A stretch of 32,853 nucleotides of DNA. Source: a bacterium (GTDB taxonomy: Bacteria; Acidobacteriota; Terriglobia; Terriglobales; Acidobacteriaceae). A program made the position numbers and the translations under genes. Below the pieces are notes generated by a model. That model saw only the letters and a program-made list of their open reading frames with translations, was not told the origin of the DNA and did not search any database. Of this stretch, positions 5,223 through 16,073 are shown in pieces. How positions within the stretch are numbered: the stretch's first letter is position 1; the number at the start of each line of letters is the position of its first letter. The stretch covers positions 1 through 32,853 of the forward strand of contig JAMFSC010000232.1 of NCBI GenBank assembly GCA_026225095.1. The letters run 5' to 3'.

Positions 5223-8200
5223 TTAGAACAGGAGCTTGCCTCCGAACTGGAACTTGCGTGCGTCCCAGGTGGAGGTGACCTGTCCGAAGTTGCTTGCGGT
5301 GAAGCTGTTTTGGAGGTTCTGGAACTGGGTGTGGTTGAAGGTGTTGAAGGACTCGGCGCGGAGTTGGAAGCGGAGTGCCTCGCCGTGGATCGGGAAGGAT
5401 TTGAAGACGGACAGGTTGGTGTTGAAGCGTCCGGGGCCGACGACCTTATCCTTGCCGGAGTTGCCGAAGCCCTGATTGACGCCTGTGGTGTCTCCGCCGG
5501 ACCAGGGAGCGAGCGGGGCGGCGAAGGCAGCGGTGTTGAAGAACTTTGAGTAGGTCTTGGATCCGACGGTGGAGACGCCGGGGACGATGTTGGCGCGGTT
5601 GGTGGTGCCGCCGCCGAGACCGATCGTATCGGTGCCGTAAGTTACGGATACGGGTGTTCCGGAGTTGGCGATGGTGATGCCGGAGATCTGCCAGCCACTC
5701 AGGAACTCGTGTTCGGCGAAGTTATTGGAGTGGCGGAAGAAGGGCAGGTTGTAGATGTAGTTGGTGCTGAAGATATGGCGACGGTCGTAGGAGCCGGAGC
5801 CGCGGTCGTAGCGCTGGTTGAAGGGGTTGGAGAGGGTGGCGAGATCGCCTCCGTTGCTGGCGAGATCGATCTGGTGAGACCAGGTGTAGGAGACCTGGAC
5901 AGTGAGGTCGTGCTTGTTCTCGACTCGAAGGCCGGTCTGGAGAGAGTTGTAGCTGGAGTTGGTGGTCTGCTCCTCCTGCGTGATGCCGGCGAATCCCTGG
6001 AACTGGCGCAGGGTGTTGGTATCGACCTTGCCATTGGCGACGCTTTGACGAACCGCTGGAGAGCTGTTGAGGGGAAGCGTGTTGATGGCGCGGTCATCAT
6101 TCTGATGCCAGCCCGATGTTCCGACGTACTGGAGTACACCGATGATGGAGGGAGCGACCTCGCGCTGGATGCCGAGGCTGTACATGGCCAGCCCTGGAAG
6201 CGGATAGCGATAGGCGAGATTGGTAAGACTTGCAGGCTTCGGGTTGGTGGATGCGGTGAGGCCGGTGCTGGCGCTCCGATTGGCGTTCGAGAAGTAGACG
6301 TTGGACGCGGAGGGCTGGTAAGAGAAGGGCGGATTGCTACCGGCGTTGTAGGAGTCGTTGCCCTGGATGCGTTCGAAGAAGAGACCTGCGCCTCCGCGGA
6401 GGACGGTTCTTCCGTCACCGAAGAGATCGTAGGCGAATCCGACGCGTGGCTGCGCGGACTTCCAGTCGTTCTGCACGCCTCCGCGGGGGAAGCCGTTGAC
6501 GCCCGCCAACTGGATGCCGTTGAGGTAGAAGGGCTGGGAGCCTCCGGGGGGTACGGCGAATCCGGGGCCGGTCGGGTTCAGGGTTCCGTTGACCGGGGTC
6601 TGCGCCTTGGTCGGATCGTAGTTGGCGGGAACGAAGTTGGCCAACTCGTTGAAGCGCTCGTAGTTGTGCGGGATCGCGTCGTAGCGGAAGCCAAGATTGA
6701 GGGTCAGTCTCTTGGTTACCTTCCAATTGTCTTCGGCATAGATGGAGTAGGTGTTATTGACCCAGTGGAGACCGTTGAGCGTCTGCAACTGCGTGAACGT
6801 GGCCGCGTCGCCGAGGAGGAAGTTGACATAGGGGTCGCCGGCGAAGGTGGAGTTATTGAAGACGTAGGTTCCCTGCGTGTTGGACTGGAGCTGCTGGTTC
6901 TTGATGAAGTGCATCCAGGAGACGCCGAACTTGAGACCGTGACGGCCCTTGTTCCAGGAGAGATCGTCGCGGTACTGGAAGTCCATGGCGGCGTTGTGCC
7001 ACGGATAGTAGGAGGAACTCCAGTTGGTGCTGTAGGGGGCACCGAGATCGACCTCGGGGAGGCGGTTGAGTGCGTTGTTGCCGGTGAAGAAGGTCTGGAT
7101 GCTGAAGCCGGTTGGCTGCGCGAAGTTTCCGACCGGGGTGATCGTCAGCTTGTTGCCGTTGAAGTTGAAGGCGGTCTCGTTGAGAAGGTTGGGAGAGAGG
7201 GTCTGGGTAAGCTTGACGACGGCTGCCCATGCGGGGTTCTTGATGGCGCTGCCTACGGATGGATAGTTGTCGTTGCTCCATAGGGGAGGGAACTTTGTCT
7301 GGGCGTTCTGGTCGTGGATGTAGTTGCCCATCAGTTGCAGCTTGTCGTTGATGGTGTGATCGATGCGGACGAGATCTTCGCGGACGAAGGTGGGCTGGCT
7401 GATGGAGGTCACGAACTGATTGGCACCACTCGACACGTTGGGCTTGGGGAAGATGCCGGTCGCGATCATGGCGACGGCGTTCGGATCGATCAGGTTCGCG
7501 GGGATGACGTTGCCCGGAAAGGGCTGGCCCGGAGTGAGGTTGTCCTGCGCATAGATGGCGAGCTTTGCGGGGTCAGTGGTGACGGGAACGATGGGAATGT
7601 TGCCGCCGCTGGGCGCGACGTAGCTCAAGGGCTGTCCGGCCACGGGGAAGTCAGCGGCGGGGATGGTGTTCGTGGTGCTGGGCGCGGTGCCGGCGATCTC
7701 GCGGCGATCTTCTTCGTTGAAGAAGAAGAAGGTGCGCTGGCGGCTGTTGTTGTAGAGGTGCGGGATGAAGAGGGGTCCGCCGATGTTGCCGCCGAAGATG
7801 TTGACGCGAAGCTTGGGGGTGGGCTGATGGTTGAGCTTGGAGATGTAGTTGTTGGCATCGAAGGCTTCGTTGCGGTTGAACTCCCAGAGGCCGCCGTGGA
7901 AGTTCCTGGTGCCGGATTTGAGGACCATGAGGACCTGGCCGCCGGAGCCGATTCCGTAGTCGGGGCTGTAGTTGCTGGTCAGGGTCTGGAACTGTGCGAT
8001 GGAATCCTGGGAGACGAGGATGCTGAAGCAGCCGCCGCAGCCGCGGTCGTAGATCTCGCCGCCATCGACGAGGTAGATGTTATGGCTGGGACGGGTGCCG
8101 TTGAAGCTGATGCCGTTGCCGGCGGTGAGCGCCATGACCCCGTTGTAGTCGGGGAGGGTGTTGGAGACGCCGGGTGCGAGAACCGCCAGTGCCGTGATGT

Positions 8201-9105: not shown

Positions 9106-10107
9106 TCAGACGCAGCCGCAGGAGTTCCGCCGGATCAGCATGGCCCCGAGCTCGATGCGCTGGACCGGGAAGGGGTCGCTGGAGCCGACACGCTTGAAGA
9201 GGAGGCGGACCGACTCGCGCGCCATGAGGTCCGTTGGTTGGACCATGACGGTCATGGGCGGTTGTACCAGGGTCGCGAGATCGACATCGTCGAAGCCGAT
9301 GAACGCGATCTCGCTTGGATTGTCTGGCTGAACATTACGGATGGCCTGCATCGCGGAGACGGTCGCCATGCTGCTGAGGGCGAAGAGAGCGCGGGGGGGG
9401 TGCTTGCTTCGGAGGGCGTTCGCTATCTCGGTCTGGAGTGAGATGTAGTCGCTGGCCGCGATGACGCGACTCTTGAGCCCGGCTTCCTGCATGGCCTGCT
9501 GGTAGCCGTGGATGCGCTGCTGAAAGGAGTAGATGCTGGGGTTGGCGGTGACGCAGGCGATCTGCTGGATACCGTGCTGGACGAGGTGAAGGGTGGCTTG
9601 GCGGGCCGCGTGGCGGTGGTCGAGCATGACGACGTCCGCGTCGTCCCACAGGGGGCGGTCGAGGGCGACGATGGGCATGGTGCCGAGTTCGCGGCGAAGC
9701 TTTTCCATGTCGGAGTTGGGGGCGGCGGCGAGGATGACGCCGTCGGCGCGGGAGCGGCGCAGGACCGCAAGTTGTTTCGACTGGCGGTCGGGATCTTCCT
9801 GGTGGGTGAGCAGGATGACGGAGGAGCCCTGACGGGTGGCCTCGAGCTCGATCTCCTGCACGCAGCGACTGAAGTAGGGATTGGCGATCTGGGGGAAGAT
9901 GACGCCGATGGATCTGGACCGGCCACCGCGGAGGCTGCGGGCTACTTCGTCGGGCTCGTAGCCGAGGGAGTGGACGGCATCCATGATCCTCTGGCGGACC
10001 TCGGGGCTGACGTAGGGTCCGCCGCGGAGGCATCGCGAGACGGTTGAGGCACCGACCCGGGCTGCCTTGGCGACGTCGAGAACTGTTGGCCGGCGTGAGG
10101 GGACCAT
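9106..10107 (-). CDS. LacI-family transcriptional regulator
   Basis: The 333-residue protein has an N-terminal LacI helix-turn-helix: PTVLDVAKAARVGASTVSRC (residues 7-26), then VSPEVRQRIMDAVHSLGY and the hinge-helix segment PDEVARSLRGG. The remainder is a periplasmic-binding-protein-like sugar-sensing domain beginning SIGVIFPQIANPYFSR and including AFIGFDDVDLATLVQPPMTVM near the C-terminus. It probably represses the surrounding transport and glycosidase genes until a sugar ligand binds. The GH127-type gene lies 75 bp upstream on the same strand and the TonB-receptor gene lies downstream. Best candidate operator: the GCAACGTTGC palindrome at 8939. The effector sugar cannot be read from the sequence. 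Confidence 0.95.
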   Translation of the reverse strand: MVPSRRPTVLDVAKAARVGASTVSRCLRGGPYVSPEVRQRIMDAVHSLGYEPDEVARSLRGGRSRSIGVIFPQIANPYFSRCVQEIELEATRQGSSVILLTHQEDPDRQSKQLAVLRRSRADGVILAAAPNSDMEKLRRELGTMPIVALDRPLWDDADVVMLDHRHAARQATLHLVQHGIQQIACVTANPSIYSFQQRIHGYQQAMQEAGLKSRVIAASDYISLQTEIANALRSKHPPRALFALSSMATVSAMQAIRNVQPDNPSEIAFIGFDDVDLATLVQPPMTVMVQPTDLMARESVRLLFKRVGSSDPFPVQRIELGAMLIRRNSCGCV

Positions 10108-14633: not shown

Positions 14634-15329
14634 ATGGGGATTCGGTTTTCAGATGAAGGATTGAAGTTTCTGCGGGCGCTCGCGCGGCATAACGATCGGG
14701 AATGGTTCGGGGCCAGGAAGGAAGTCTTCGAGCGGGAGCTGAAGGCTCCGATGCTGGCCCTGATCGACGAGATCAACCATGCGCTGGAAGGGTTCGCGCC
14801 GGAGCATATTAGGCCTCCCCAGAAGGCGATGATGCGGATCTATCGGGATACACGGTTTTCGGCGGATAAGACGCCATACAAGACGCAGGTTTCGGCGTGG
14901 TGGTCGCGGGAGGGGCTGGAGAAGACCTCCGGGGCGGGGTTCTATCTGAGCTTCGGGGTGAAAGGATTGGTCGTCGCCGCGGGGTCCTATATGCCGGAGC
15001 GTGAGCAGTTGCTGGCGATGCGGCGGTACCTGGCGGAGCATGGGATGGAGTTTCGTAAAGTCATCGAAGGGAAGAGGCTGCGGGGGTTGCTGCCGGAGTT
15101 CGAGGGGGCGAGTTTGACGCGGCCTCCCAAGGGGTTTGTAGGGCTGGAGCCGGAGGTGATGGAGATGGTGATGTGCCGGCAGTGGGGCCTGTCGGTGACG
15201 CTGCCAGTGGAGGTTGGGTTGGCGGATGGTCTGAAGGGGGAGATCGTGAAGCGATTCAAAGCGGCGGCGCCGATGGTGGAGATGCTGAACGCTCCGCTGG
15301 TGAGGGTTGGACGGAAGGCGATGTTCTAG
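14634..15329 (+). CDS. DUF2461 family protein
   Basis: This 231-residue protein has the DUF2461/TIGR02453 pattern: an early FLRALARHNDREWFGARK, MMRIYRDTRFSADKTPYKTQ in the middle, and SFGVKGLVVAAGSYMPER. No catalytic function is established for the family, and no signal peptide or membrane segment is seen. A GAGG stands directly before the ATG. It is transcribed away from mnmE. Downstream is a palindrome-rich gap that contains a terminator-like hairpin at 15507-15535. Confidence 0.9.
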   Translation: MGIRFSDEGLKFLRALARHNDREWFGARKEVFERELKAPMLALIDEINHALEGFAPEHIRPPQKAMMRIYRDTRFSADKTPYKTQVSAWWSREGLEKTSGAGFYLSFGVKGLVVAAGSYMPEREQLLAMRRYLAEHGMEFRKVIEGKRLRGLLPEFEGASLTRPPKGFVGLEPEVMEMVMCRQWGLSVTLPVEVGLADGLKGEIVKRFKAAAPMVEMLNAPLVRVGRKAMF

Positions 15330-15357
15330 TCCTGCCGGATGGGCCCACTACGCGTGG

Positions 15358-15496
15358 AGCGGTCACGGGGCCTTCGGCAAGACCTTCGTGACTTTTATAC
15401 CGCTTCGCTGGGTGCTCCCGATGGTCGCCAGCTGAGCTTCATTCCGACCATTGGGAGGACCATGCGAAGCCCAACGCGTCTCGCGGAGTGACCGCT
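15358..15496. repeat. Nested inverted repeats upstream of the HU gene
   Basis: Three nested arms can be read. AGCGGTCAC (15358-15366) pairs with GTGACCGCT (15488-15496). GCTTCGC (15402-15408) pairs with GCGAAGC (15464-15470). CTCCCGATGGTCG (15415-15427) pairs with CGACCATTGGGAG (15445-15457) at 12 of 13 positions. The loop is 17 bases. Together they could fold the whole interval into one long hairpin. This could be a second type of dispersed acidobacterial repeat or a structured leader; only one copy is visible here. Confidence 0.7.
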
Positions 15497-15506
15497 GCCC
15501 GCGCTG

Positions 15507-15535
15507 GGCGCTTTGGGCCTGAAAGCGCCGTTTTC
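15507..15535 (+). terminator. Terminator-like hairpin after the DUF2461 gene
   Basis: A perfect 8-bp stem GGCGCTTT/AAAGCGCC (15507-15514 and 15522-15529) with a 7-base loop is followed by GTTTTCT on the plus strand. It lies 178 bp after the DUF2461 stop and could end that transcript, or one starting in the palindromic region. Confidence 0.5.
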
Positions 15536-15586
15536 TGAGGAAATCTGCCGGTTTTGGGCTGAAATGAAAAGATTTCCTAAGAAAAC
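15530..15586. repeat. 17-bp inverted repeat in the HU leader region
   Basis: GTTTTCTGAGGAAATCT (15530-15546) and AGATTTCCTAAGAAAAC (15570-15586) pair at 16 of 17 positions with a 23-base spacer. The stretch is AT-rich compared with its surroundings. A TTGACA hexamer follows at 15621-15626, but no good -10 box at standard spacing was found. The element may be an operator or cruciform controlling the HU gene. Confidence 0.6.
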
Positions 15587-15776
15587 CTCTAAAAACCAGT
15601 AAAAACCGAAGATACGCGGTTGACAAGTGACGCCGAAAGGTCGAAGGTGAATTGCGGTACGGTACTCCGCGCCCGCATAAACACTGGTGTTTTGCTACAT
15701 CGGTCGCGGGTATCGGCGGGCCGGTAAGGCCGAGATGCTGTATTCGGACAAAATACTTTTCTAGGAGCAAGAGACG

Positions 15777-16073
15777 ATGGCTAAGGGAATGACCAAGACC
15801 GCGCTGGTGCGGGCGATGGCAGAGAAGATGGAACTGACGAACAAGCAGACATCGAGCTTTCTGGAGCTGCTGGCCGAGACCGCAGTGAAGGAGACGAAGA
15901 AGAACGGGGAGTTCACGATTCCCGGAATCGGCAAACTGGTGAAGGCCGAACGGAAGGCTCGCCTTGGCCGTAATCCGCAGACGGGTGAGACGATCAAGAT
16001 CAAGGCGAAGACGGTGGTGAAGTTCCGTGTCGCGAAGGTTGCCAAGGACACGATCGCTCCGCCAAAGAAGTAG
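15777..16073 (+). CDS. HU/IHF-family DNA-binding protein
   Basis: This 98-residue basic protein bends and compacts DNA. It has the HU fold: helical N-terminus (MTKTALVRAMAEKMELTNKQ) and the strand-turn GEFTIPGIGKLVKAERKAR. The DNA-intercalating arm includes RNPQTGE, with the Pro that inserts between bases, followed by IKIKAKTVVKFRVAK. The lysine-rich tail ends KDTIAPPKK. A clear AGGAG (15763-15767) precedes the ATG. The gene stands alone behind a 447-bp gap full of inverted repeats, suggesting its own complex regulation, and a strong terminator follows. Confidence 0.95.
   Translation: MAKGMTKTALVRAMAEKMELTNKQTSSFLELLAETAVKETKKNGEFTIPGIGKLVKAERKARLGRNPQTGETIKIKAKTVVKFRVAKVAKDTIAPPKK

Follow-up and report, generated by a model that had tools for sequence, protein, structure and literature searches.

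The 32,853-nt stretch of DNA analysed here (the window) carries a block of nested inverted repeats upstream of an HU gene, and the question that this locus raises is whether the block regulates HU or is there for another reason. An earlier note had offered three readings: a regulatory RNA leader, a small RNA, or a second class of dispersed repeat beside a 124-bp family. The host is a member of the Edaphobacter/Granulicella/Tunturiibacter group (Acidobacteriota), and the block is part of one copy of a palindromic repeat that is dispersed through genomes of this genus. We consider it probable that this copy, at 15329-15512, is a REP/BIME-like element that is maintained as DNA and has a role at the 3' ends of genes, rather than a regulator of HU.

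The nested block is part of an inverted pair of multi-hairpin units

The three nested arm pairs that had been described over 139 bp (15358-15496) can be read directly from the sequence. The outer arms, AGCGGTCAC at 15358-15366 and GTGACCGCT at 15488-15496, pair at nine of nine positions, the middle arms, GCTTCGC (15402-15408) and GCGAAGC (15464-15470), at seven of seven, and the inner arms (15415-15427 and 15445-15457) at 12 of 13, the odd pair being G-T. A repeat search merges these arms into 26-nt arms that are 85% complementary and 16-nt arms that are 88% complementary. The RNA fold of 15340-15520 reached -93 kcal/mol compared to -73.8 ± 4.6 for 200 shuffled sequences (z -4.16), none of which folded as well, in agreement with the claim of more structure than chance would give. 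The block is also unrelated to the 124-bp family, as had been proposed; the best blastn match between the two is 11 nt long (E 0.45).

The element exceeds this block, running from 15329 to about 15512, or to 15523 by the covariance model, and its first base is the G, the last base, of the TAG stop codon of the DUF2461 gene (Table 1). The terminator-like hairpin that overlaps the end of unit 2 is no more than expected by chance.

Table 1. Coordinates of the repeat copy and its surroundings in the window
Feature	Position	Strand	Basis or remark
DUF2461 gene, upstream; the G of its TAG stop is also base 1 of the element	14634..15329	+	PF09365, E 1.4e-52
Whole repeat, head-to-head dimer of two units	15329..15512	+	Profile matches 15329-15427 (+) and 15445-15512 (-); covariance model 15329-15427 and 15445-15523; copies elsewhere
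Unit 1, with 18-nt hairpin III extension	15329..15427	+	Profile search, alignments
Hairpin I (GTCC-TGCC-GGAT)	15329..15340	+	Family pairs kept in 100% of cells, hardly varying
Hairpin II (CCAC/GTGG)	15345..15357	+	Three family pairs changed on both sides
Nested block of the earlier note	15358..15496	+	Outer long-range arms without covariation in the family
Hairpin III (GTCAC/GTGAC), 18-nt loop extension	15362..15392	+	Alignments, paired changes
Hairpin IV (GC-TTC-GC)	15402..15408	+	Both bases exchanged, G-C to C-G, in 18 of 55 units
Central 13-bp stem (15415-15427 with 15445-15457), 17-nt loop; the inner arms of the nested block	15415..15457	+	In 51 dimers, 95.6% of cells are paired; mostly invariant
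Unit 2, lacking hairpin I and more decayed	15445..15512	-	Profile search, alignments
Unit 2 hairpin II (GCCC/GGGC)	15497..15509	+	Four of five family pairs changed on both sides
Terminator-like hairpin, then GTTTTC; overlaps unit 2 end	15507..15529	+	1 found compared to 0.8 ± 0.9 in shuffles
TTGACA within the conserved promoter-like block of HU; the element lies upstream	15620..15625	+	Common to nine relatives
HU gene	15777..16073	+	PF00216, E 1.2e-23

Profile search and alignments define a family unit of about 81 nt, which consists of four hairpins (I-IV) followed by one strand of a 13-bp stem. Hairpin I is GTCC-TGCC-GGAC, hairpin II is a variable 4-bp stem around a TNCGC loop with eight fully complementary four-pair versions, hairpin III is usually GTCAC-TTC-GTGAC and hairpin IV is a short stem around TTC. 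Two inverted units joined at the 13-bp stem form a dimer; there were 87 distinct head-to-head dimers, with a central loop of 14-22 nt (15-17 nt in 79 of them). Single units also occur. The pieces of the host genome, picked around known copies, held 46 elements (35 single units and 11 dimers), and 400 kb of a second genome, G024, held 37 (18 single units and 19 dimers). The unit consensus ends are GTCCTG and GGTCG, and two kinds of outer end occur: the first carries hairpin I, the second reads roughly TAAAGGCGCCC. Variants of modules were seen as well, namely the 18-nt extension of hairpin III that the window copy carries and a different, GGCG-type hairpin III. When G024 and M8UP22 are aligned, orthologous copies differ in whether they carry an insert of about 43 nt, which forms a hairpin of its own close to hairpin II; this looks as if hairpin modules were exchanged.

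The repeat is abundant in some genomes of one genus

The genome-wide search suggested earlier returned many copies, and the proposal of a second dispersed repeat class was borne out by both blastn and a covariance model. With 15340-15520 as query, blastn returned 58 match rows at E <= 1 from the host genome (5.1 Mb in 288 contigs); some rows are one palindromic place counted on both strands. The covariance model of the unit gave at least 126 unit matches in this genome among 150 scored candidates (3,891 at first look). Extrapolation from 37 elements per 400 kb to about 440 elements in the G024 genome may be too high, as contig C4 was chosen after matches had been seen there.

At E <= 0.001 the covariance model matched 25 of the 61 genomes searched. 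All of these are among the 37 genomes of the genus, the host included, and there was no match in the 24 genomes outside it. Within the genus, 13 genomes have at least 18 matches (no more than 76 were counted in any one genome), 12 have one to four and 12 have none. Blastn found matches in 23 of the 61 genomes, five of them outside the genus, where the matches were short and weak (25-31 nt, E 5e-4 to 4e-3) and where the covariance model, with stricter filters than blastn, had none. A core pattern was found in 56 stretches of named genomes, which belong only to strains of Edaphobacter lichenicola (Tunturiibacter lichenicola in the NCBI taxonomy), Granulicella aggregans M8UP14 and Granulicella sp. 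L60. A stricter pattern, made from a host-genome monomer with the 18-nt insert, had no match in the named genomes.

The palindromic element and the 124-bp family share landing places. For seven of the 46 host-genome elements (for example on contigs C71, C200 and C26), a member of the 124-bp family is found no more than 300 bp away, in one case at 2 bp.

Local hairpins, not the long-range arms, are kept by paired changes

Covariation was counted in alignments of 51 of the 87 dimers (length 150-190, clear loop orientation) and of 55 of the 164 units; some rows are orthologues, so that changed cells are not independent events. In the 51 dimers, 96.1% of the cells of the local hairpins and central stem were paired, and 105 cells were changed on both sides compared to 31.5 ± 3.9 in shuffles and 5-8 with slid partners. 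In the 55 units, the local hairpins had 81 such cells compared to 23.9 ± 3.1. Pair 16-30 of hairpin II, which is unpaired in 15 of the 55 units, is not claimed as kept, and hairpin IV was counted in the 55-unit alignment since it is misplaced in that of 164 units.

The exact outer arms of the nested block had three cells changed on both sides compared to 3.5 ± 1.5 in shuffles, with 80.0% of cells paired compared to 80.4%. A neighbouring outer long-range helix, taken together with the central stem, had 16 such cells compared to 21.1, and 480 of 500 shuffles were as high. The long-range nested fold was therefore rejected as a conserved structure. Independent divergence of the arms, which the earlier note had named as counter-evidence, is thus seen in the outer long-range arms, with no paired changes beyond shuffles, but not in the local hairpins, which covary. 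We conclude that a chain of small hairpins with a central stem is what is kept, and that the single long nested hairpin arises from the inverted symmetry of the dimer. Dimers can nonetheless fold as such a hairpin (z -11.3; the window copy, z -4.16).

For six single-unit stretches the fold did not surpass that of shuffled sequences (z -1.69 to 0.52). At four hairpin II pairs in the 164 units, G-T and A-C cells were equally few (8 and 8). Among 23 tandem monomers, the outer end points toward the stop codon in 11 and toward the start in 12. Though the numbers are small, the weak folds of single units, the lack of orientation and the equality of G-T and A-C together fit a structure that is maintained in DNA, or in both strands alike, better than one maintained in a single RNA strand. 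Replication-based correction of palindromes could likewise yield paired changes.

Most elements lie close behind stop codons

Placement relative to genes was judged with a purpose-written gene caller, and expectations were taken from 401 random placements. In G024, 36 of the 37 elements lie between genes, 18 of them between tandem, 15 between convergent and three between divergent pairs. The median distance to the nearest stop codon is 10 nt, with 24 of 33 elements within 20 nt of a stop compared to 2.3 ± 1.5 expected (maximum 9). The host genome, in which 10 of the 46 elements could not be assigned to a gap between called genes, gave a median of 4.5 nt, with 25 of 30 elements within 20 nt compared to 2.4 ± 1.5 expected. 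The enrichment of convergent pairs in G024 (15 compared to 9.9 ± 2.7) is only modest, since the random maximum of 17 exceeds it.

The stop codon is TAG at 15 of 26 hairpin I ends and TAA at 12 of 18 ends of the other kind, while the called genes have 208 TAG, 164 TAA and 153 TGA stops. With this bias, the ends of the element seem to supply stop codons, as the ends of GTAG REPs often do according to excerpts of PMC3733652. An intrinsic terminator was considered as a general rule and rejected, because the T-tracts at element ends are weak: TTT was found at 9 of 36 ends called as kind B, some of which are diverged A ends missed by the pattern, compared to 13.5% of random intergenic stretches.

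The element is not the HU leader

DUF2461 is present in 20 of 36 relatives searched, and in nine of these 20 an HU gene lies on the same strand 238-507 nt downstream. At 15560-15690, upstream of HU, the window has an A-rich tract, TTGACA and GAAGGTGAAT-like and CCCGCATAAACA-like stretches, all conserved in the nine relatives. TTGACA lies 157 nt before the HU start in the window and 144-197 nt before it in the relatives. This conserved region is likely the HU promoter and leader. The nine loci contain no element by the unit profile or by blastn. Since the HU block lies downstream of the element and the element is absent at nine HU loci, the element is not an HU leader, which would lie between the HU promoter and the HU start and be conserved in orthologues. 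A promoter scan of 15200-15800 found nothing and says little, because it missed the HU block too.

Two of the 20 relatives, G013 and G018, carry the element behind a DUF2461 gene that has no adjacent HU gene. The common feature is thus the 3' end of the gene, not HU. The small RNA found no support either: Rfam gave no match in the window (the best sub-threshold match scored 20.7 bits compared to a gathering threshold of 83), and copies stand behind unrelated genes. What remains of the earlier interpretation is the dispersed repeat, without the HU leader and without the small RNA. In one relative (locus L106), a different, repeat-like sequence lies between the DUF2461 stop and HU, where the window has the element.

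Many copies are old and Y1 transposases are not linked to them

The element was present at the orthologous site in 14 of 16 pairs mapped from G024 to the sister species M8UP22 and in 14 of 18 mapped in reverse, some elements being counted twice as stretches under two names. Therefore, many copies are old. No target duplication was seen, but the available empty sites are too diverged and none is clean.

A PF01797 match is present in 9 of the 13 element-rich and 19 of the 24 element-poor genomes, and four rich genomes have none, so its presence is not correlated with the abundance of the element. Across the 13 rich genomes there are 20 Y1 matches, and not one has the element on both flanks; a single match, in G018, has an element to one side of it at a distance of about 2.4 kb. 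None of 23 further Y1 loci in other genomes is flanked by two inverted units. The only Y1 gene of the host genome encodes a 149-aa IS200-like protein. By eye, no gene was seen between two inverted units within 3 kb in the G024 element list.

The genomes G022 and G001 carry hardly any copies (one dimer in G022, one dimer and one single unit in G001), and in both the dimer immediately follows a gene whose product has a phage terminase domain and precedes one for a HipA-like kinase. At the corresponding site of the host genome and of M8UP22 there is likewise an element, and the gene before it again has the terminase domain (in M8UP22 at 22.3 bits, just below the 22.6 cut-off). A prophage is a plausible carrier of the element. 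In other low-copy genomes the element is mostly near ordinary genes, and searches of phage and plasmid collections by blastn and of IMG/VR with an exact pattern gave no match. On contig C89 of the host genome, a cluster with genes for a phage portal and a terminase contains three dimers (L206:3901-4068, 7737-7904 and 9686-9859); the terminase site in this cluster is the one common to G022, G001 and M8UP22. The remaining unit match in G001 (L222) follows a peptidase M3 gene and also adjoins a gene for a HipA-like kinase (PF20613).

Discussion

We propose that the element spreads and persists as DNA and that an enzyme probably recognises it in the form of a folded single strand. Selection would remove copies that land in genes or promoters, leaving the survivors behind stop codons. 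There, the RNA of either transcribed strand would form hairpins, by which the 3' end of the upstream message (here DUF2461) could be marked or protected and read-through into the following gene (here HU) could be lowered.

The hairpins could instead have been selected mainly as RNA, as a 3'-UTR element (a terminator, exonuclease barrier or translation brake) that spread by copying and was kept for its job. The placement just behind stop codons, the strong folds of dimers (z -11.3 and -4.16) and the paired changes in local hairpins are consistent with this, and REP roles of that kind are described in excerpts of PMC12306157. However, an RNA kept for such a job sits poorly with the lack of orientation relative to the gene (11 versus 12), the absence of a G-T excess over A-C (8 and 8), single units that fold no better than shuffles and the weak T-tracts, and we regard it as possible but not favoured. 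To an HU leader RNA or riboswitch, or a separate small RNA, we give almost no credence: the element is upstream of HU and folds well, but the conserved HU block lies downstream of it, nine HU loci lack it, Rfam has no match and copies stand behind many unrelated genes.

Inverted symmetry, many copies and the same outer end in many of them would also be expected of a MITE of an ordinary DDE-type insertion sequence, the inverted repeats being transposase sites. This is unlikely given the many single units (35 of 46 elements in the host genome, 18 of 37 in G024), the two kinds of outer end and the lack of a visible target duplication, although no clean empty site was available. We doubt even more that the element is a true REP that owes its mobility to a RAYT (Y1 transposase). 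Its placement and head-to-head dimers are as in the REPs described in excerpts of PMC3733652, but four of the 13 element-rich genomes have no PF01797 match while 9 of the 13 rich and 19 of the 24 poor genomes have one, and 0 of 20 Y1 matches in rich genomes are flanked on both sides; such a transposase may once have been present and since been lost. Our preferred explanation, a REP/BIME-like repeat maintained as DNA, could be extended to a genus-wide REP-like family of multi-hairpin elements that is independent of tyrosine transposases, has exchangeable modules, can fold on both strands, is multiplied by an enzyme new for such repeats and is carried between species by a prophage with a dimer behind its terminase gene. 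We offer this extension tentatively and find it rather doubtful as a whole.

These results remove a false lead, the HU regulator, and replace it with a bounded, genus-restricted family of REP-like repeats. As some genomes of the genus have many copies and others none, uncorrelated with the usual transposase, REP-like multiplication becomes testable by strain comparison. The family is also a warning that paired changes in intergenic hairpins need not imply a regulatory RNA.

Integron attC sites resemble the element in being imperfect palindromes behind stop codons in which structure is kept more than sequence. In contrast to attC sites, the element follows ordinary genes at scattered places and is not arranged in cassette arrays, and no core-site motif was noticed in it. 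In the literature searched, part of it available as excerpts, we found no published description of this palindromic family; excerpts of PMC12306157 note that RepRanger tabulates counts of palindromic elements for Granulicella aggregans. TIRtrons (TIRYT), tyrosine transposases flanked by terminal inverted repeats, occur in the same phylum, in Acidobacteria, and some of their terminal repeats form dispersed dimers, as excerpted from PMC3733652. Those repeats flank tyrosine transposase genes whereas the element flanks none, a distinction drawn from their description in these excerpts.

RAYT-associated REPs and REPINs share with the element small palindromic inverted pairs with stems kept by complementary changes (PMC2817692; PMC3116915, both in excerpt). 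According to excerpts of PMC2817692, rayt genes are always flanked by two inverted REPs and correlate strongly with REP abundance, whereas the element has neither a flanked Y1 gene nor a correlation with PF01797. The GTAG/CGTC REPs, as far as excerpts of PMC3733652 describe them, are palindromic, dispersed, intergenic repeats within about 20 nt of 3' ends that lie in convergent and tandem gene pairs and form head-to-head dimers with structured spacers. Their unit, 20-40 bp long, contains a single hairpin and carries a terminal GTAG or CGTC tag on one side; in contrast, the unit of the element is about 81 nt long with four hairpins and exchanged modules, and its ends (GTCCTG and GGTCG, compared by eye) carry no such tag. 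With REP/BIME elements in the general sense, the element shares its palindromic and dispersed state in many copies (at least 126 unit matches in the host genome; 37 elements per 400 kb in G024), its extragenic position near the 3' ends of genes and its inverted dimers, of which 87 distinct head-to-head examples were found.
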